Of a stretch of 38,126 bases of DNA, positions 24,255 to 37,252 are shown in pieces (the stretch's first letter is position 1; every line of letters begins with the position of its first letter). The DNA lies in contig CADBUI010000004.1 in NCBI GenBank assembly GCA_902797855.1, positions 1-38,126 of the forward strand. The letters run 5' to 3'. Under the pieces are notes generated by a model. That model saw only the letters and a program-made list of their open reading frames with translations, ran no database searches and was not told the DNA's origin. This stretch comes from an uncultured Erysipelotrichaceae bacterium. Its GTDB lineage: Bacteria > Bacillota_I > Bacilli_A > RFN20 > CAG-826. The position numbers were made by a program, and so were the translations under genes.

Positions 24255-26597
24255 ATGAGAAATATTGTCATCGCTCCAAAGGAATCTTTTTCGACACTAT
24301 TTTCACTTTTTAGAAAAGACGATCCTTTTAATGATCCAAAGTTTTTCACTAAAGAGGATTTAAAAAAAGAAGTCCTTTATTCATATAGTGATGACGCTCT
24401 TATTTATTTAATTAAAATCAGGAAATTTGAATATTCTTTAGCAAAAAAATATCTCGAAGCTTTGTCATCTTTGACTTCATATGATGGCACCAATAAAGAG
24501 ATTATTGAACTTATTAAGATAAAAGATGAATTAGTGGATAATGGTCTACTTATCAAAAATGAATATATTGATTATGAACTAGACCATTCAAATATTTTTG
24601 TCGCCTTTTATAACAAAAATGATTTCGAAATATCTTCATTACTTAAAGGTAGAAAATATTCATATATCGAACCATCACCGGTCTCTAATAGGGAGTCGTA
24701 TCATTTCAAAGATTCCTCTAGTGAACTTTTTTTCGTTTTTAATAAGATCGCTGAACTTATCGCTTCTGGAGTGCCATCAAGCGAGATATCTATTTATGGA
24801 TTAGATGAAGTCGATACTCTAACCATCCTACGTTTACTTGATTATTATCATCTCCACATTAATGGATTTAATGATGAAAAAATGATTGATTCAAGTATTG
24901 TTAGGTATTTTCTTTCTAACTACGATAGTGAAGATATTCTTCAAAAAATAGATGAAAGATTCTTAGACGATAATAACTACGATCTTTTTAAAGAAATAAT
25001 TGATAAATTTTCTATAGGTGAACTTTCAAAAGATGAACAAAAAAGACTTTATAGAGATGTTTTTAATAATAAAAAATCAAGTCGAAAGATTTATAAAGAC
25101 GCTATTAAGGTAGTGAATTCACCATTCGTAAAAGAAAACGAATATCTATTCATTGTGAACTTTGTTCAAGGAAAATTCCCAACAATAATTAAAGATAATG
25201 GCTTACTTGATGATAAAGATAATATTGAACTAGGTCATACATCTTTAAATAATCTTAATTTTGATAATAACGAATTATTTAAGAATTCATTAAACCAAAA
25301 CGCTCATATCTATATTTCTTATTCAGATAATAACGCTAATGGTCCACTTTATCCTTCCCCTTTAGAAAAGGATTTAAATATTTCCTTTGTGGAATCACCA
25401 ATTTCAAAAGATTTATATTCAAAATTAGAATGCAATATTCAATCTGCGTATCACGAAGACTTATTCAAAGATTTCTTAATTGATAGTCCTCTTTTAAGAG
25501 CTTATCGCTTAGTTTGTAAAATCCCTTATCTAACTTATTCAAATAAATATAACAAAGCTATCCACTTTCTTGGTGATCAACACTTAAGTCTCTCATCATC
25601 TTCTTTAAAAGAATTTTATCAATGTGGATATAGATTCTATCTAAATCGCATTTTAAAAATAGATCCAAAAGATGAATCCTCTTATGTCGCAAAAGTTGGA
25701 AATATATCTCACTATATTTTAGAAAATCTCGAATCTAAAAAGTCGTTTGATGAACTATTTTCTATGGCAGTTAAATTACATGGAGAAAACTTTAACGAGA
25801 AAGAAAAATTCTTGTTAGAAATTAGAAAAGAACATTTTAAGAAAGCTTTTGATTATATCGAAGAACAAGAAAGTCACATAGTTAACCCTAAAGTTAATAG
25901 AGAAGATAGTGATTTCAATGTTGATTTAGATGATTATCTATCAATAGTGGGAAGAATTGATAAATATGTGACTTATGGTGAGCATAACGAGTATGTTTTT
26001 GTGGTGGACTATAAATCTGGAAGTGAGGATTTCGATGAAAAAAGAATTCCTTTTGGTCTATCTTTGCAACTTCCAATATATGCCTTATTAATTAAGAATA
26101 CTCCTATACTTAAAGACAAAATTCTAACCGGGTTATTTATCCAAAAAACATATAACAAGGACGCTTTAAAATTTAAAGAAGGCGATAGTAAATATTTTGA
26201 TAATTTAAAACTTACAGGCGTTTATCTTTCTAGCGTTAAGGCTATGTCAATGTTAGATGATTCTTTGCTTTCTAGTGGAACATCAAAATATATTGCTTCT
26301 TGCACATTATTAAAACCAAATCCAGATGATCCTAATCCATATAATCGCTCTTTTAGTGCAAAATCAAATCGCTTCAAAAATGAGGAATGGTTTGAAAACG
26401 TCATTAAGCAAGCAGAGGATTTATCAAAAAATGCTTATAAAAAGATTCATAATAATGAATTTGAAATTAACCCAAAATATTTAAACGGACAAAACGTTTC
26501 TTGTGCGTATTGCCCATTTAAAGATTTATGTTTCAAGACAAATAAGGATATGCAGTTTATATCAAATGAGGAAAACGGTGAAAATGAGCGAAGTTAA
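24255..26597 (+). CDS. addB: AddB-like subunit of the double-strand break nuclease, Fe-S PD-(D/E)XK type
   Basis: The 780-residue protein ends in a RecB-type nuclease domain: GNISHYILENLE (483-494, His486), GRIDK (Asp569), VVDYKSG (Asp585, Lys587) and LSLQLPIYA (Gln605). Four Cys residues in the AddB iron-staple pattern are intact: Cys457 in EFYQCGYRFYL, then Cys750, Cys753 and Cys759 in SCAYCPFKDLC. The N-terminal 440 residues are a reduced helicase-like region without a recognisable Walker A. Typical AddB is about 1150 residues, so this version is strongly shortened. It overlaps the downstream helicase-nuclease gene by 14 bases. Together the pair should process broken DNA ends for recombination. 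Confidence 0.85.
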   Translation: MRNIVIAPKESFSTLFSLFRKDDPFNDPKFFTKEDLKKEVLYSYSDDALIYLIKIRKFEYSLAKKYLEALSSLTSYDGTNKEIIELIKIKDELVDNGLLIKNEYIDYELDHSNIFVAFYNKNDFEISSLLKGRKYSYIEPSPVSNRESYHFKDSSSELFFVFNKIAELIASGVPSSEISIYGLDEVDTLTILRLLDYYHLHINGFNDEKMIDSSIVRYFLSNYDSEDILQKIDERFLDDNNYDLFKEIIDKFSIGELSKDEQKRLYRDVFNNKKSSRKIYKDAIKVVNSPFVKENEYLFIVNFVQGKFPTIIKDNGLLDDKDNIELGHTSLNNLNFDNNELFKNSLNQNAHIYISYSDNNANGPLYPSPLEKDLNISFVESPISKDLYSKLECNIQSAYHEDLFKDFLIDSPLLRAYRLVCKIPYLTYSNKYNKAIHFLGDQHLSLSSSSLKEFYQCGYRFYLNRILKIDPKDESSYVAKVGNISHYILENLESKKSFDELFSMAVKLHGENFNEKEKFLLEIRKEHFKKAFDYIEEQESHIVNPKVNREDSDFNVDLDDYLSIVGRIDKYVTYGEHNEYVFVVDYKSGSEDFDEKRIPFGLSLQLPIYALLIKNTPILKDKILTGLFIQKTYNKDALKFKEGDSKYFDNLKLTGVYLSSVKAMSMLDDSLLSSGTSKYIASCTLLKPNPDDPNPYNRSFSAKSNRFKNEEWFENVIKQAEDLSKNAYKKIHNNEFEINPKYLNGQNVSCAYCPFKDLCFKTNKDMQFISNEENGENERS

Positions 26598-29500
26598 ATG
26601 GAATGATGAACAAGCGTTAGCCATCTCTGCTAGAGAGGGTAATTTCCTTATTTCCGCATCAGCAGGAAGTGGTAAAACTGCTGTCCTTACCGAAAGAGTG
26701 TATGAACTTATTAAAGAAGGCACAAATTTAGATGAACTTCTTATTTTAACTTTCACAAATAACGCAGCAGCAAGTATGCGCAATAAAATAAGAGACAAAC
26801 TGAATGAAAACCATTATGAACATTTAGCATCTTTAATTGATGCAGTAAACATTCAAACATTTGACGCTTTCGCTTTATCAATCGTTCAAAAATATCATTA
26901 TAAAATCAATCTTTCTAGCGATATCAAGATTGTTGACCAAACACTTGTGAAGCTTGAAAAAAGAAAGATATTAGACCAACTATTTACTGAAAAATATGAA
27001 GCGAAAGATGAAGCGTTCCTTTCTTTGATTAAAAAGTTCTGCCTCGATAAAGATGATAATATTGTCGACTTTGTAATTAAGATCGAAGAGAAAGCTGACC
27101 AAAAACTCGATAAGATAAATCATCTACATAAATATGCAAATGAATATTTAAATCTTGATTTTATCTCTGATGAGATAGATAAATTATCAGAATCTATTAA
27201 AAATGAAATATCGACATACTACGATATGGCAATGAAGTTTTCTAATCCTAACTATTCAACTGCCGTTTGTGAATATTTAAATCATTTCTTAGTCGCTAGT
27301 GGCTATGATGAACTTGTTAAGGTCGCTCATGATGAAACTTTAAAATATCCTGATAATCGCTCGAAAATCATGAAACTTGAAGACTCAATTGATATAAAAA
27401 ATAACAAATTAATTAGAGATTCAGTTAAATCACTAAAAGAAGGGTTACTTAATTATTCATCTAAAGAGGAAATTATAAATAGACGTCTTAATTCGAAGCA
27501 ATATATAGATGAACTGGTGAAACTTGCTATTGAGTTAGATGCTAGATTAAACGATTTTAAAAAGAAATATAGCATTTACACATTCCAGGATGTTTTTAAA
27601 CAAGCTATGAGTATCCTTAAGCTTGATGAAATTAAAGAAAAATTTAAAAAGCGATACCGCTATATCATGATTGATGAATATCAAGACACTAATGACCTAC
27701 AAGAAGAATTCATCAATATGTTTATGACTAATAATGTCTATGTAGTAGGGGATGTTAAACAATCGATTTATCGATTTAGAAATGCGAATTGCGATTTGTT
27801 CTTAAATAAATTTTATTCCTATCCTTTATTTTCTAAAGATAATAAATCAATTAATAATCGCATCGATTTGCCAAAGAATTATCGTTCTAGAAATGAAGTT
27901 TTAGATACAGTTAATGAAGTCTTTGGTAATTTAATGACGGTTAATAATTCTGGACTTGATTATAAAAAAGATCATCAAATGATTGCGGGTAACACGAAAT
28001 TAAATTCCTTTAAAGATCCTCATTTTGATTATTCTAGTGAGGCTATCGTTTTTGAAAGTCCTAGCGATATGAACTCCACGGAATATGAAGCTCGTCTAGT
28101 GGCCTCTGATATCATTCATAAAATTAATTCTAAAATTCAAATAGAAACAAAAGAAGGAGTGAGAGATATTACTTTTAAGGATTTTGCTATTCTTTCGTAT
28201 TCAAAATCTGACTTCAAAATATATCAGGAAGTTTTTGAAGAATATAAAATCCCTCTATTTGCTAAATATAGTCAATCTATCAAAGATAGTAATCTCACTC
28301 TTGTGATGGAAAACATCATCAAATGTATTACCTTTATTAAAAACAAAGATGGTGAGTTGCCTAAAGAATTTGATCATCCATTCATGTCTATAATGAGAAG
28401 TTTCTTGTTTAGAGAAAGCGATGAAGAAATTGAAGATGTTATCTCTCGCAAAATCCATTATTTAACAAAAGAATATCAAAAACTTGAAGAAGTAGCCAAA
28501 AATTGTGAACATAAGAATTTGAAAGACACAATCACCTTCATTATTAATACATTTGATATTTATCAAAAGGCTATCACTATTGGAGATATGTCTAAGTCTA
28601 TCGAATTACTTAATTACTATTACAATATCGCATCACAAATGGATGAAATGGGTTATTCATTAGAAGATTTTAAAAATTATTTTAATGATCTTGATGAATA
28701 TGAAATCGATCCAGACTATGAAAGCGGTGATTATAGCGATAATTCCGTTAAACTATTATCCATTCATGCTTCCAAAGGACTTGAATATCGTTTCGTCTAT
28801 TTTGTTCGACTCAGTAAGAAATTCAATAACGAAGAACTTAAAAACAAATTACTTGTCGATAACGAATATGGAATTGATTTACCAGATAATAACTACGACA
28901 ACGTTGATAGTATCATCCACCATCTAATAATTAGAAAAGAAAAACAAAATGCTTTACTTGAGCAGCTTCGTGTCTTTTATGTTGCACTTACACGCGCTCA
29001 AGAACACATCATTTTCATGTGGAAAAAAGATTATAAAAATGATCCACCAATTCAACTATTCCAATCAACTTCCTATATGGATTTTCTAACTTTATCAGAC
29101 ATTTCTCCTCGAATTATTTCAGTTTCACTAGATGAAAAACTTCTTAATAGCATCAATAAAAATACTGATGAAATTAAACTAACACTTCATGATGAAGTCA
29201 GCCTTGATGATCAGCTTATCGAACATCATAGAGCTTCGAAAGAAGTTGGTGACGCTAGTAGTGAACTTCTCGCATTAGGCAATAAATATCACTATTATCT
29301 AGAACTAATCGATTTCAAAAATATTGATACATCATTTATCAAAGATAGCCGTGACAAATATTTAATTGATAGATTCCTTTCTAATCCAATCTTCCATAAA
29401 GAAGGTTTAGAAAAAGTCGCTCACGAATATTCTTTCTATGATGAAGTTAATCAAGTTCATGGTATTATCGACTTAATGCTCATCTATAAAGATCACATTG

Positions 29501-29652
29501 ATATCATAGACTTTAAACTTTCTCATGTAGATGATGAGGCATATGAAAAACAAGTTGGAATCTATAAAGATTATGTTTCTCAAATTTCTAGCTTACCAAT
29601 CTCAACTTATGTGACCGGTATTATGAGTGGAGAGATAAAGAAGGTTTCTTAA
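26584..29652 (+). CDS. addA: AddA helicase-nuclease
   Basis: From the ATG at 26584 (with GAGG about 10 bases upstream) the protein has 1022 residues; a longer open frame runs back into the addB-like gene from a GTG and is not used. It is a UvrD/Rep superfamily 1 helicase with Walker A SASAGSGKTAVL (24-35), Walker B IDEYQDTN, GDVKQSIYRFR, KNYRSRNEV, LLSIHASKGLEYRFVY and VALTRAQEHI. The C-terminal PD-(D/E)XK nuclease has GIIDLML, IDFKLS and EKQVGIYKDY. AddA unwinds and trims double-strand breaks with AddB. It is shorter than the usual 1200, in line with its compact partner. The two are translated together by the 14-base overlap. Confidence 0.93.
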   Translation: MSEVKWNDEQALAISAREGNFLISASAGSGKTAVLTERVYELIKEGTNLDELLILTFTNNAAASMRNKIRDKLNENHYEHLASLIDAVNIQTFDAFALSIVQKYHYKINLSSDIKIVDQTLVKLEKRKILDQLFTEKYEAKDEAFLSLIKKFCLDKDDNIVDFVIKIEEKADQKLDKINHLHKYANEYLNLDFISDEIDKLSESIKNEISTYYDMAMKFSNPNYSTAVCEYLNHFLVASGYDELVKVAHDETLKYPDNRSKIMKLEDSIDIKNNKLIRDSVKSLKEGLLNYSSKEEIINRRLNSKQYIDELVKLAIELDARLNDFKKKYSIYTFQDVFKQAMSILKLDEIKEKFKKRYRYIMIDEYQDTNDLQEEFINMFMTNNVYVVGDVKQSIYRFRNANCDLFLNKFYSYPLFSKDNKSINNRIDLPKNYRSRNEVLDTVNEVFGNLMTVNNSGLDYKKDHQMIAGNTKLNSFKDPHFDYSSEAIVFESPSDMNSTEYEARLVASDIIHKINSKIQIETKEGVRDITFKDFAILSYSKSDFKIYQEVFEEYKIPLFAKYSQSIKDSNLTLVMENIIKCITFIKNKDGELPKEFDHPFMSIMRSFLFRESDEEIEDVISRKIHYLTKEYQKLEEVAKNCEHKNLKDTITFIINTFDIYQKAITIGDMSKSIELLNYYYNIASQMDEMGYSLEDFKNYFNDLDEYEIDPDYESGDYSDNSVKLLSIHASKGLEYRFVYFVRLSKKFNNEELKNKLLVDNEYGIDLPDNNYDNVDSIIHHLIIRKEKQNALLEQLRVFYVALTRAQEHIIFMWKKDYKNDPPIQLFQSTSYMDFLTLSDISPRIISVSLDEKLLNSINKNTDEIKLTLHDEVSLDDQLIEHHRASKEVGDASSELLALGNKYHYYLELIDFKNIDTSFIKDSRDKYLIDRFLSNPIFHKEGLEKVAHEYSFYDEVNQVHGIIDLMLIYKDHIDIIDFKLSHVDDEAYEKQVGIYKDYVSQISSLPISTYVTGIMSGEIKKVS

Positions 29653-31872: not shown

Positions 31873-32079
31873 GAAGGAAACGGATTTAATAAAACTTCAA
31901 TATCGAAAGAAAAAGCAAACATAATGAGTTGTTCCAGTTGATAAACGCATCTTGGTAATTGGTGATTAAAGAAGATTATACAAAACGGACTTTTAGGTTT
32001 ATTCCTTAATAATAATTAGATAAGTAGTTTGTGGAAAAGAAATCTATAATTCGGTATAACAAAAATGATTATTGTCTTA

Positions 32080-32085
32080 TAAAAT
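32080..32085 (+). promoter_or_regulatory. -10 box of leaderless sensor gene
   Basis: TAAAAT ends 6 bases before the ATG at 32092. The larger TATAAAAT (32078-32085) allows either register. No ribosome site is present and no clear -35 is visible. Confidence 0.5.
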
Positions 32086-32091
32086 TAGAAT

Positions 32092-33357
32092 ATGGAATGG
32101 TATAGAATCCTTAATTTTGTTTTGCAAGGTATATACTTACCTATTCATTTTGTTTTTATCGTTTCTTTAATTAAAAATAGAAAACCAACACCTATATGGC
32201 ACTTGTTTATTGTGGTTGTTATTGGCTTATGGATTATGGTTTCTGGTAGGTTTTTAGAGACCATCGCTTATATCTTTTATCCGAATAACGATTTTTACGT
32301 TTTCGCTGTTTATTACCAACTTGTCGGAACCACATTTGCATCGTTTGCTTTCTTGCTTTGGAACCTATATTTAGCAAGATGGGATAAACTAGCGAATAAA
32401 CCGATTTTTAGAATAGTTTTATTTTCTATTGCTGCTATTATCTCTATTTTTGTTTGTACAAATTCACTGCATCATCTCTTTTATGAAAAATTAGTGATGG
32501 GAGAACAGGTTCAGCACGGAAAACTATTTTATCTATGCTTGGTATTGGTTTATGCCGCCTTGTTCATAGGCTATATCATATCTATCATTCATATCATTAG
32601 AAAAGAAAAGAACAAGGCTATTAAGATAATCGTTTTCTCCTTATATCCGCTTTTGCCGGCTGTTACAGCGTTGGTGAGGTCTATTACTGGAGTTGATGAG
32701 CTTGATTTTACACCAATCATCATGTTTGTCGCTGTCTTCTGCCTATATATCATCGTCTTTAAATTTAATTCACTCAGTTTGATTAGTAAATCAATTGAAA
32801 GTGTTTTAGAAGAAATTCCAAATATAGTGGTTCTATACAATCCGCAAAAAGGCATTCTTTATCAAAACAATAAAGAAAAGAAAGAGCTGGTTGATAAAGC
32901 AATAGAAGAGGTTAATAAGCAAAATAATGTCAAATCATTTGAACTCGCTTTTTATGATAGTCATTTCTATATTGAAATAAATAAAGATGACGACAACGAA
33001 TTAATCATTATCAACAATATTGATGATGTTTATTTAGAAAGAAAAGCAATCGAAGAAAGTATTGTTGAAGCAGAAAAACTCATCAACGATTTAAATGAGA
33101 AAAAGAATACAATACAAACCTATATTAACGCTTTGTACGATTTACCAGATTTAAAAGAAAAGGTTACTAGCTTGACTAATGCTCAAAAAATAGTGTTATC
33201 GAATATAGCAATAATTAAAGAACATTTTATTGCCATTAAGAATAATCCAAAAAATAGCGAAGCATTACTTAAGGAAACCGCTACTTTATGTCAAGAAACA
33301 ATTACGATTATTAGAAAAGCAGTTAATAAATTAAGTGGAGTAAGCGCTAATGAATAA
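32092..33357 (+). CDS. Seven-transmembrane sensor subunit of a split histidine kinase
   Basis: The 421-residue protein has seven membrane helices (about 9-27, 36-54, 70-92, 106-122, 145-168, 176-196, 205-225) of the HisKA_7TM receptor type, including CTNSLHHLFY in the large loop. After these comes a PAS-like segment (about 233-312, IESVLEEIPNIVVLYNPQKG), then a coiled coil (313-345) and a helical C-terminus. It has no phospho-acceptor H-box and no ATP-binding domain. Those reside in the next gene, which overlaps this one by 8 bases. The two are therefore best read as the separate sensor and catalytic halves of one kinase complex. Confidence 0.75.
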   Translation: MEWYRILNFVLQGIYLPIHFVFIVSLIKNRKPTPIWHLFIVVVIGLWIMVSGRFLETIAYIFYPNNDFYVFAVYYQLVGTTFASFAFLLWNLYLARWDKLANKPIFRIVLFSIAAIISIFVCTNSLHHLFYEKLVMGEQVQHGKLFYLCLVLVYAALFIGYIISIIHIIRKEKNKAIKIIVFSLYPLLPAVTALVRSITGVDELDFTPIIMFVAVFCLYIIVFKFNSLSLISKSIESVLEEIPNIVVLYNPQKGILYQNNKEKKELVDKAIEEVNKQNNVKSFELAFYDSHFYIEINKDDDNELIIINNIDDVYLERKAIEESIVEAEKLINDLNEKKNTIQTYINALYDLPDLKEKVTSLTNAQKIVLSNIAIIKEHFIAIKNNPKNSEALLKETATLCQETITIIRKAVNKLSGVSANE

Positions 33358-34288
33358 TTATAAGACGATATTCGATAGTTTCCCTTCACCATTTTTCATC
33401 CTAGATTCTTTTGGTTATATTTTGAAATACAACAAACGCGTTGATTTCAAAGGCATTAAAAAAGGAAAAAAGTTAACTGATTTAATACCTGATTGTTTGC
33501 AAAATAAAGAAGGTAAGTTTGTTTATAACAACATCATTTTTAAACGCATTACTAAAGAAATATATGACGATGAGCTACTAATTAATTATGCTGTTGTTTT
33601 AATTGATATTACAGAAAAAGAGTCAATTAACAATCAAAAACAAGAAAAACAAAAGGAACTTCAAGTTCTTGCTAGTAGTTTAAGAGAGTCTAATCAAGAA
33701 TTAGAAAATCTTTTAGAAGAAATCAAGTCATTATCTGATTATGCTGAACAAATAAGATTAGCAAGAGTCATCCATGATAATTACGGTCACGCAATAACGG
33801 ACTTATTTATGATTTCTAATATGTGTTTAGAGTCCAAAAACAATAATCCGAAAACCTATAGACAATTAATTATTGAAGGTGAGAAGATCATCGACAAGAT
33901 TTTATCTCCAGACCAATTTGAAGCCGGTTCTTTAAAAGAACTTTTGATTTCTTTATCTAAGATTTCTGAATTTCCAATTGTGATTACTATAAATGGCGAA
34001 GAACCTGACTTTATTAAGAAACAATACAAATTAATTAAAAAAATTTGTAAAGAAGCTTATCACAATACATTAGACCATTCTTTAGGCAACCAAATGTTTA
34101 TTAATTTAACAATGAATGAGAAAGATGTAATTTTGGAAATCTATGATGATGGGAAGTGGCATGGAGAATTTGAAAAAGGTTTTGGACTTACCTCAATGGA
34201 AGATAATGTCGTTGCTTCTAAAGGGAAAATAGACTTTGTGCATCAAGAAGGACAAGGGTTTAAAATAATAGTAATGTGGAGTAAATAA
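33350..34288 (+). CDS. Cytoplasmic histidine kinase subunit (NarL-partner type)
   Basis: The 312-residue soluble protein has a PAS-like domain (5-92), a coiled coil (93-134), a dimerisation helix with phospho-acceptor His142 in RLARVIHDNYGHAIT (136-150, HisKA_3-like), and a HATPase_c domain. In the latter the N-box is KEAYHNTLDHS (Asn239), the G1 box YDDGKW (265-270) and the G2 box GFGLTSMED (277-285). It lacks membrane segments. A GGAG site lies 9 bases before its ATG, inside the sensor gene. It should phosphorylate the NarL-type regulator encoded 3 bases downstream and receive its signal from the 7TM partner, perhaps through the matching PAS/coiled-coil regions. Confidence 0.85.
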   Translation: MNNYKTIFDSFPSPFFILDSFGYILKYNKRVDFKGIKKGKKLTDLIPDCLQNKEGKFVYNNIIFKRITKEIYDDELLINYAVVLIDITEKESINNQKQEKQKELQVLASSLRESNQELENLLEEIKSLSDYAEQIRLARVIHDNYGHAITDLFMISNMCLESKNNNPKTYRQLIIEGEKIIDKILSPDQFEAGSLKELLISLSKISEFPIVITINGEEPDFIKKQYKLIKKICKEAYHNTLDHSLGNQMFINLTMNEKDVILEIYDDGKWHGEFEKGFGLTSMEDNVVASKGKIDFVHQEGQGFKIIVMWSK

Positions 34289-34291
34289 ACG

Positions 34292-34927
34292 ATGGACAAA
34301 ATAAAAATAATTATCGCAGATGATCACCCAATCACAATTGAAGGATTAAAAGTTACTATTGAAAAATGGGATGATTTTGTTGTCGTTAATACTGCGAATA
34401 ATGGACAAGAATTATTATCGATATTAGAAAACACACCTGTAGATATCGCTCTTATCGATATAAGAATGCCGGTATTAGATGGTATTGAAACCATTAGAAT
34501 TATTAAAAATAAATATCCAAATGTCCGTGCAGTTGCTTTATCCACTTTTGATGATGTCGATACAATATCTCGTTCTATAGAAGCTGGATGTGATGGTTTT
34601 CTTTTAAAGGTCATTGAATCCAATCAATTAAGACAAGCGTTGCTCAGCGTGATGGGTGGCATTAATGTTGTTGATAAAGCTGCGTTAGAAATCTTAAGAA
34701 ATAAAGAAAAAATTGAAAAAGAATGCAAATTTTCGGAAAGAGAATTACAAATACTCGAATATATCTGTAATGGTGATTCCAATAAAGAAATTGCTGCTAA
34801 ATTATCTCTACAAGTAGGGACAGTGAAAAACATTGTTTCCTTAATGCTTTCTAAATCATATTGTGTTAGCCGTGCCGCTTTAACGCGTTTTGCTTTAGAC
34901 AATCATTTGGTCAAAACAAACAAATAG
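34292..34927 (+). CDS. NarL/FixJ-family response regulator
   Basis: The 211-residue protein has a receiver domain with acidic pocket Asp10/Asp11, phospho-acceptor Asp56 (IDIRMP), the switch ALSTFDD and Lys106. Its LuxR-type DNA-binding helix-turn-helix occupies about 146-205 (FSERELQILEYICNGDSNKEIA, with the usual KEIAxxLxxxxGTVKNI recognition part). It follows the kinase gene after 3 bases and ends the three-gene two-component operon. It probably controls the lipoprotein and DUF6273-type genes directly downstream. Confidence 0.93.
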   Translation: MDKIKIIIADDHPITIEGLKVTIEKWDDFVVVNTANNGQELLSILENTPVDIALIDIRMPVLDGIETIRIIKNKYPNVRAVALSTFDDVDTISRSIEAGCDGFLLKVIESNQLRQALLSVMGGINVVDKAALEILRNKEKIEKECKFSERELQILEYICNGDSNKEIAAKLSLQVGTVKNIVSLMLSKSYCVSRAALTRFALDNHLVKTNK

Positions 34928-34954
34928 AATAAATAGTGACTTTTGGAATGACTT

Positions 34955-34982
34955 ATGGCACTTGTTTATTGCGCCATTTTTT
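34955..34982 (+). terminator. Terminator of the two-component operon
   Basis: ATGGC (34955-34959) pairs with GCCAT (34973-34977), followed by TTTTT from 34978. The 5-bp stem is short but GC-rich for this genome. It lies between the regulator gene and the lipoprotein gene. Confidence 0.55.
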
Positions 34983-35040
34983 CTATATTCTCAAATTGAT
35001 AAATAAAAAATTTTTATTTTGTTTGGGAGGAAATTTAATT

Positions 35041-35730
35041 ATGAAAACACAAATCAAGAGCTTGTTAGTTTTATCTGTTTTATCAATTTTTTCATTGGCT
35101 GGGTGCAATGTGAACGAAAACATGCTTAATCCAGGAGATGATGAGACAGGAGAAAACCTCCCTTATTCATCAGAGCAAGCCAAAAATAGATTATTAGAAT
35201 TAGGCGAAACAAGTGGCTTTGAAATTACCTATCAAGCTTATAACGATGATGATGAAGAGATTGTCAATTATATCTTTGGTATGAAAGATAATATTACTTG
35301 GCAAGATGATGGTGCAGATAAAGAAGCCATTAAAAGGACTGATAGTGGCTTAGATATTTTTGAATATGATTCAGGAACACAAAGCTATGTACAAACTTAT
35401 ACATATTCAGAATCTGATGCTGTTGAAGTATATAACTCGTATGTAACTAGTTACACTGCAGTGTTTTTCATGGCTAACGCATATGATGGCATGGAAGGAT
35501 ACCACAAAGTTAAGGATTTGACTTTCGCAGGAAGAAGCGCGACAGAATATCGTTATGATTTAACTGTATATGCGGGTGAGGTTCATTTAACAACTGTCAT
35601 CGATAAAGAAATTGGCATCACTTTATTTTGGGATGCAAATGGTAAAACCTATGAAGGCGAAAGTGGTTCTGCGACATTCAAGGTTTCTTCATTCAAGACC
35701 GGAAGCCAAGTTAACGTACCAGCTGTTTAA
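35041..35730 (+). CDS. Lipoprotein of unknown function
   Basis: The start is the ATG at 35041, because GGGAGG lies just upstream and the lipoprotein signal begins there; an earlier in-frame codon is not supported. The 229-residue protein has lipobox SLAGC with Cys22 lipidated, an acidic linker, and a globular part about 45-229 rich in Tyr, Asp and Thr, with short beta-like stretches such as YVQTYTYSE and ATEYRYDLTVY. I recognise no domain. It belongs to the block after the two-component genes and has an unusually strong ribosome site. It is probably a surface protein regulated by the system. Confidence 0.75.
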   Translation: MKTQIKSLLVLSVLSIFSLAGCNVNENMLNPGDDETGENLPYSSEQAKNRLLELGETSGFEITYQAYNDDDEEIVNYIFGMKDNITWQDDGADKEAIKRTDSGLDIFEYDSGTQSYVQTYTYSESDAVEVYNSYVTSYTAVFFMANAYDGMEGYHKVKDLTFAGRSATEYRYDLTVYAGEVHLTTVIDKEIGITLFWDANGKTYEGESGSATFKVSSFKTGSQVNVPAV

Positions 35731-35779
35731 TGTATAAACCAATAAATGATTTATACGATTGTGAAATGGGTATAACAAT

Positions 35780-37252
35780 ATGAATAAAAAAAGCTTGCTT
35801 CTAATGTTAACAACAACATCTTGCGCTGCGGTAGTTGCGACAACGCTTTTTGTCTCCAATAATCTTGGAATAGATGCTTTTGCTCTTAATCGTGGAGTTC
35901 CAGCTAGTGAATATTCAATTACGATGAGTGCTACAAATTGCACTAAAGTGACAAGTAATTTATTAAGAAGTTCAACAGATTCTGGAAGTTGGTCATTTAA
36001 TTTTTATAAAACTGGAGATGCTAGAGTTTCGTTTGGTAGCTTCCCATTTTACGGTGGAGGTGAAGCGTTTTTATCTTTTAAAGATAATGATTCTTACTCA
36101 TATCTAAATAATGCATCTGGTCATGGAATTTCCGGAATTACATCTATCACCGTCGATTATTGTCGTCAAACTAATTATGTTGATAATCCAACAGATACAT
36201 CTAGTGGAGAAGTTGGTGATTTGAAAATCTTGTTTGGATATGTTGATTCGCAAGGAAGTCTTCTATATGAAACAACTTCACATGATTTATCTCCAGACTC
36301 TCCATATGATATGAGCGACTTAGAACCAAGGTATTTTAAAATCACTGGTTCAAAAGATTTTAAAACCGAATACACAAACGGCCGAATAAACATCAAATCA
36401 ATTAAGATTTGTTATTCCTGCGATAGTTTAAGAACTGACGCTGCTGTTAGAGAAGATTTATTCGCCAATCAATTTGATGTAGAACCTATAAAGGTCGGAA
36501 ATGTTTGGACATATGGTTATTATCCACAAACATTAAGTGATATTTCAGAAGTTTATGAGACGTTGTATCAAGAAAATCCAGAATCGTTTTTACCGCTTGA
36601 TAATGGATATTATTTATTGGATGGAGACTTCTTTAAAAGGGTTCAAGCGGAAGGAGCAGGATATAATAATGAATATACAGTTGGTGATTATTATTGGTTT
36701 AAAGTTGAACCTGTCGTTTGGAGAAATGTCCGTACATTAACAACTGGCAGCACACCAAAATATGGCAGCATTATAGTTAGTGAAAAAATTCTTGATACAT
36801 CGATTTACAATCCTTATGAAAACGATCCATCGGCCTATACAGCAGATACTACATTAGGCGAAAAAATGAATGAGTTGTACGAAACTATGTTACCTTCAAG
36901 TCGTACAACACATTTGACAACTAGCAACTTACAGAACGACATTGAATCTAGCTGTCAAACTTATTTATTCCCATTAAAAGAAAGTTCGTTTACTGGTAAT
37001 AGTACATCGTTTGCTGATGGAACACTTGCTAAAACAGCAGTCGCTACCGATTATGCTAGAAGTAGAACATATGCAAAAAACGATATTACTTCTACAGGAC
37101 TTATGTCTTATTGGACTAGAACAAAATATAATGGCTATTTTGAAGTTGTAACTACATCTGGAACAATTACTATTACCGCTGGTGATAGTAATGTTGATAG
37201 ATGGAACAGTATGGGTGTAAGACCATCTATCAAGATTAAGTGGTCAAACTGA
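35780..37252 (+). CDS. Secreted protein with DUF6273-like C-terminal domain
   Basis: The 490-residue protein starts with a signal peptide (about 1-34, ending near DAFA). An N-terminal all-beta region (35-210) has serines and threonines on strands. Its C-terminal half resembles DUF6273/FISUMP-type domains: GNVWTYGYYPQT near 238, PVVWRN, GSIIVSEKILD, ATDYARS, LMSYWTRT and a final MGVRPSIKIKW. Such domains are widespread in surface proteins of gut Firmicutes and their function is unknown. No membrane anchor or LPXTG is seen, so it is probably released or loosely attached. It is the only complete gene here that stops with TGA. It lies 49 bases after the lipoprotein gene and may share its promoter. 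Confidence 0.75.
   Translation: MNKKSLLLMLTTTSCAAVVATTLFVSNNLGIDAFALNRGVPASEYSITMSATNCTKVTSNLLRSSTDSGSWSFNFYKTGDARVSFGSFPFYGGGEAFLSFKDNDSYSYLNNASGHGISGITSITVDYCRQTNYVDNPTDTSSGEVGDLKILFGYVDSQGSLLYETTSHDLSPDSPYDMSDLEPRYFKITGSKDFKTEYTNGRINIKSIKICYSCDSLRTDAAVREDLFANQFDVEPIKVGNVWTYGYYPQTLSDISEVYETLYQENPESFLPLDNGYYLLDGDFFKRVQAEGAGYNNEYTVGDYYWFKVEPVVWRNVRTLTTGSTPKYGSIIVSEKILDTSIYNPYENDPSAYTADTTLGEKMNELYETMLPSSRTTHLTTSNLQNDIESSCQTYLFPLKESSFTGNSTSFADGTLAKTAVATDYARSRTYAKNDITSTGLMSYWTRTKYNGYFEVVTTSGTITITAGDSNVDRWNSMGVRPSIKIKWSN

Follow-up and report, generated by a model that had tools for sequence, protein, structure and literature searches.

Histidine kinases are almost always depicted as homodimers that carry sensor and kinase on one chain. 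The window analyzed here (the whole stretch of 38,126 nucleotides, from an uncultured Erysipelotrichaceae bacterium) encodes a seven-transmembrane (7TM) receptor, RCV, a soluble histidine kinase, KIN, and a response regulator, REG, on three consecutive genes, the first two of which overlap. The question raised by this locus is whether receptor and kinase are subunits of a single sensor, or else a self-sufficient kinase with a docking partner, neighbors in separate pathways, or the pieces of a broken gene.

Layout of the locus and anatomy of its proteins

The genes lie on the + strand in the order RCV, KIN, REG, and the reading frame of KIN is +1 relative to that of RCV. The features are given below together with the evidence for each; G542 and G559 denote MAGs of two other genera of the family (UBA3835 and RGIG4495, respectively) that hold further copies.

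32092..33357, + strand: RCV, 7TM receptor, 421 aa (HisKA_7TM match, AlphaFold2 model m521d5bdd16ba, 96-98% identical copies)
33350..34288, + strand: KIN, soluble histidine kinase, 312 aa (conserved residues, DesK profile match, model mc49559cb4b19, Foldseek)
34292..34927, + strand: REG, NarL/FixJ-type response regulator, 211 aa (Response_reg and GerE matches)
33350..33357, + strand: RCV/KIN overlap of 8 bases, ATGAATAA (identical in the window, G542 and G559 copies)
33337-33340, + strand: GGAG 5' of the KIN start (seen in the window sequence)
35041..35730, + strand: gene of a small lipoprotein-like secreted protein (accompanies RCV, KIN and REG in all three copies; no Pfam match)
35780..37252, + strand: gene of a 490-aa secreted protein with a weak DUF6273-like C-terminus (common to G559 up to 36727 only)
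31973..36727, + strand: block apparently shared by horizontal transfer (blastn, ~94-97% DNA identity, flanks unrelated)

The 8-base overlap and the GGAG site are present as the original prediction had them, the overlap without change in the three assemblies and the GGAG replaced by GGGG in one of them; together they suggest translational coupling of RCV and KIN. REG starts with ATGATG in the G542 and G559 copies as opposed to ACGATG in the window (34289-34291), so that the window REG begins one codon later. The terminator candidate after REG is a weak hairpin (z -0.28). Upstream of RCV (32056-32092) there is no clear ribosome site, and a TAAAAT box ends at 32085, ~6 bases 5' of the RCV ATG, in all three copies; the RCV mRNA is perhaps leaderless.

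RCV belongs to HisKA_7TM (PF16927) with 55.9 bits at a Pfam cut-off of 28.6. Its AlphaFold2 model, of middling quality overall (mean pLDDT 67, pTM 0.41), shows seven TM helices (TM part ~2-231), a PAS-like domain (235-309), a coiled coil (310-349) and a C-terminal helical hairpin (352-384/386-415) for which the pLDDT is ~80-88. The earlier description of the protein as seven helices, a PAS-like part and a coiled coil, with neither H-box nor ATP domain, is thus borne out in each of these parts, and it had missed the hairpin that the model places after the coiled coil. From the short turn between them, we infer that the two hairpin helices run antiparallel. As modeled, the hairpin resembles a kinase dimerization domain (DHp) minus the phospho-histidine, and by the order of its parts RCV looks like a kinase truncated after the DHp. 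Among the receptors compared (those of the wider family described below included), no common histidine is found in the region matching the kinase H-box; what they share is a YIKR..NL-like motif, located in helix 2 of the hairpin. Aligned to the kinases by hhalign, the C-termini of the wider-family receptors score 18.8-20.2, a weak match next to the maxima of 16.8-20.0 obtained with block-shuffled columns, and the sequences therefore do not prove that the hairpin is homologous to a true DHp. The C-terminal region of these receptors retrieved no kinase in a PDB profile search and none in a Pfam search. That they might be complete pseudokinases whose ATP domain is dead was first suggested by a match over 206 profile columns (P 2e-4); with the PAS end removed along with some of the coiled coil, the match fell to about control level, which makes the idea no more than possible. 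The GPCR-like Z-scores of ~11 for the 7TM part lie inside the range cautioned for helical bundles and are given no weight as a sign of kinship.

The model of KIN comprises a PAS domain (3-86), a coiled coil continuous with the first DHp helix (together 88-162, including H142), the second DHp helix (167-185) and an ATP domain (195-311), and the protein has no membrane part and no TM helix. This is the composition originally predicted for the gene, now backed by profile and fold matches to DesK: a profile of KIN and its relatives finds DesK structures at E 2.7e-24, and the KIN model matches DesK in Foldseek at E 1.2e-11. The Pfam scores are just below cut-off both for HisKA_3 (21.4 bits, cut-off 24) and for HATPase_c (18.3 bits, cut-off 26.4), and KIN is therefore called a divergent HisKA_3-type relative and is not classed by Pfam score. 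The H-box phospho-histidine, the N-box and the DesK-like fold that characterize the type are all found in it. H142 is invariant in 16 kinases, and E235, N239 and H243 are at least 90% conserved. REG, correctly foreseen to be of the NarL type, is a NarL/FixJ member with Response_reg (88.1 bits) and GerE (43 bits) both above their cut-offs; its receiver carries D56 (LIDIRMP) and is combined with a LuxR-type HTH.

Distribution and mobility of the receptor/kinase pair

HisKA_7TM occurs in 69 of 296 genomes of the class, mostly in proteins fused to GGDEF, EAL or HD-GYP domains, and none of the fusions inspected in the class involves a histidine kinase of the KIN type. The assumption of a usual fusion between HisKA_7TM receptors and their kinases is thus not supported in this class. 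A search for separate homologs that occur together, proposed along with the original prediction, returned 14 further, distant loci of the same layout in 6 families of the class (family B), including one (G000:C6) from the genome to which the window belongs. They comprise a 7TM receptor of ~520-560 aa and an adjoining kinase of ~360-470 aa on separate genes, which overlap by 1-19 bases or stand 1-3 bases apart, with a NarL-type regulator nearby in 13 cases. The profile of RCV (A1) found 6 loci outside its building set, each with an adjoining KIN, and that of KIN (A4) found one new locus, which has an adjoining RCV. No unpaired receptor or kinase gene was encountered among the family loci, and no fused receptor-kinase relative in the class. 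Full-length kinase matches (E < 1e-50) are separated by a sharp gap from generic kinases (E > 1e-25) in 392 genomes. Across 78 locus pairs the distances of RCV and KIN are closely correlated (r = 0.97), a value to be expected equally if neighboring genes are simply co-inherited. Most family-B kinases have ~3-4 TM segments of their own, unlike the window KIN, which has none, and the family-B receptors extend another 100-130 residues beyond the end of the window RCV.

Several individual loci deviate in detail. In G497 (L108:2-2772) a transposase-like gene directly adjoins the kinase, the C-terminal end of which is changed, and no regulator is visible; an insertion seems to have disrupted the system. 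The receptor of G240 (L049:2121-3774) consists of two overlapping ORFs (365 and 189 aa), which means either that it is divided once more, between PAS and hairpin, or that the frame has shifted, and in G214 (L137:1531-3265) the frame changes within the receptor TM domain. HisKA_7TM matches in two genomes (G036:C16:12393-12710 and G048:C28:14671-14985) from a single genus of the same order contain two in-frame TGA codons, and TGA is perhaps read as Trp there.

The window copy has a different history. With genome contigs and the whole family searched, KIN copies 96-97% identical were found in G542 and G559, and for RCV, KIN and REG together the identity to the window is 96-98%. Vertical inheritance across the family was rejected for the window copy, since neither RCV nor KIN is present in the 58 relatives searched and yet both are near-identical in two other genera. 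DNA homology (blastn) covers 31973-35712 in G542 and 32028-36727 in G559 at ~94-97% identity and then stops, and the flanks are unrelated among the three genomes. The UvrD/AddA-like helicase whose gene lies upstream in the window (26503-29652), taken as a marker of the host, shares only 34% identity with its G542 counterpart. The near-identical block, its unrelated flanks and the divergent host protein argue that RCV, KIN, REG and the lipoprotein gene moved recently between genera, and by sequence comparison the window copy is best described as a recently transferred cassette of uncultured bacteria. The G+C content of the block in G559 is 33%, and that of the DNA flanking it 46% and 35%. Binning errors in the MAGs are a less likely source of the copies: the flanks differ in all three assemblies, which speaks against one contig having been assigned three times. 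The shared block contains no integrase, and a phage or plasmid home was discarded as RCV has no relative in viral contigs or plasmids.

The cassette is accompanied by a ToxN-like gene (PF13958, L083:12114-12530) in G559 and by a C5 DNA methylase gene (L082:4587-5843) in G542, and both are mobile-gene neighborhoods. The gene of the 490-aa secreted protein (L083:6609-8096 in G559) keeps ~96% DNA identity to G559 until 36727 and diverges beyond, so that its DUF6273-like C-terminus seems exchanged; at the corresponding place in G542 the gene is missing. The lipoprotein-like protein is a possible target or partner of the system; it is by virtue of location alone that its gene and that of the secreted protein count as candidate targets.

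A proposed two-subunit sensor and the alternatives

With sensor and catalytic parts on separate, conserved and intact genes, RCV and KIN have the gene arrangement of a split, or heteromeric, kinase system. RCV, which has neither phospho-histidine nor ATP domain, is therefore no kinase on its own. Probably, the two proteins are subunits of one sensor in which KIN is recruited to the membrane and paired with RCV through the PAS, coiled-coil and DHp-like parts, and which feeds REG; we infer the physical complex, its stoichiometry, its ligand and its targets. The 7TM domain of RCV would sense an extracellular ligand from the membrane, and the intracellular parts of RCV, paired with their counterparts in KIN, would anchor the kinase at the membrane and control its activity. 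KIN would then autophosphorylate H142, the phosphate would pass to D56 of REG, and REG would switch genes, perhaps those of the neighboring surface proteins. If the dimer is one RCV with one KIN, phosphorylation of H142 would occur in cis, because only KIN has the histidine and the ATP domain. Since the distant-family kinases bring TM helices of their own, membrane recruitment is not the general reason for the split. Extended to the family as a whole, the proposal describes an obligate pair of an active kinase and a dead 7TM receptor built like a kinase without the histidine (in the window, also without the ATP domain), the window form with its soluble kinase being a self-contained module that moves between genera; we regard the chances of this wider reading as evenly balanced.

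KIN could instead be a self-sufficient homodimer, soluble in the manner of NreB or DesK, onto which RCV docks from outside as LiaF does on LiaS, with the dimerization bundle unshared. Every part required for autophosphorylation is indeed present in KIN, the TM segments of the distant-family kinases agree with such independence, and accessory membrane proteins beside kinases of this kind are known (LiaF, PMC7191749). However, RCV has its PAS, coiled coil and hairpin ordered as in KIN, which would be superfluous for a simple docking protein, and we consider this arrangement rather unlikely. It is highly improbable that RCV and KIN are neighbors by operon convenience in separate pathways, RCV signaling elsewhere: RCV-like 7TM domains do serve c-di-GMP enzymes elsewhere in the class, and the RCV-KIN interaction is a proposed one, but the pairing is kept in all 14 additional loci as well as in the two transferred copies.

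The split itself is genuine, with RCV and KIN conserved as intact separate genes. Their junction is the same in three independent assemblies (window, G542 and G559), and dN/dS ratios of 0.11-0.20 for RCV, 0.04-0.20 for KIN and 0.10-0.16 for REG point to purifying selection on each gene, which together rule out both a sequencing error common to the assemblies and a gene that is no longer functional. A frameshift, through sequencing error or in a pseudogene, that split up a once fused receptor kinase is suggested by the +1 frame and the short overlap, and yet this reading is refuted with hardly a residual chance by the common junction, by the selection on both genes, by KIN starting with its own PAS and its own start site, and by the lack of any fused relative among those found. 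The original prediction of a split as opposed to a sequencing frameshift is upheld on these grounds and by the 14 distant paired loci.

Relation to known sensor systems

A separate, co-inherited 7TM receptor and kinase offer a natural system in which to study how a signal crosses between subunits, and the RCV/KIN family lets one ask whether autophosphorylation is forced in cis and why splitting pays. The window copy additionally presents a receptor/kinase pair as apparently movable into new genera as a single cassette of ~3.7-4.7 kb and kept there under selection.

Compared to the fused HisKA_7TM members of the class, which carry GGDEF, EAL or HD-GYP domains, RCV is above the family cut-off and ends in a non-catalytic hairpin. 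KIN has a core like that of DesK by profile and fold, and REG is of the NarL type, as in the DesK/NarX-type (HisKA_3) kinases; DesK combines TM sensor and kinase in a single chain, whereas KIN is without such a sensor. LiaF, an inhibitor of a membrane kinase, differs from RCV in not being built from 7TM, PAS and coiled-coil parts. The likeness to LiaFSR of Bacillus subtilis, portrayed in PMC7191749 as a three-component system, is that a third protein stands beside kinase and regulator. PMC7656254 describes Hik36-Hik43 of Synechocystis as a histidine kinase that is split and has a single regulator, Rre6, and it is by that description that we liken it to the present system. CheA3/CheA4 of Rhodobacter sphaeroides also distribute kinase functions over two polypeptides that are active only together (PMC3591291); there the phosphorylatable P1 is separated from the catalytic domain, whereas here the sensing and membrane part is separated from the whole catalytic part. 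The nearest published parallel is FasBCA of Streptococcus pyogenes, in which FasB and FasC pair with each other but not with themselves in two-hybrid analysis; both proteins have six TM helices, a DHp and an ATP domain, and the authors' model assigns the phospho-histidine to FasC and the active ATP domain to FasB (PMC12675982). Common to both systems are two kinase-like proteins with one regulator, encoded by neighboring genes, and a partner that is partly degenerate. The window pair does not consist of two membrane kinase-like proteins with histidine and ATP domain apart, as KIN has both and no TM helix and RCV has neither, and the domain families here are 7TM, HisKA_3-like and NarL-type; the resemblance is best taken as one of working principle. 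Heterodimeric and split kinases are already known from FasBC, CheA3/CheA4 and Hik36-Hik43, and the RCV/KIN form adds to them.
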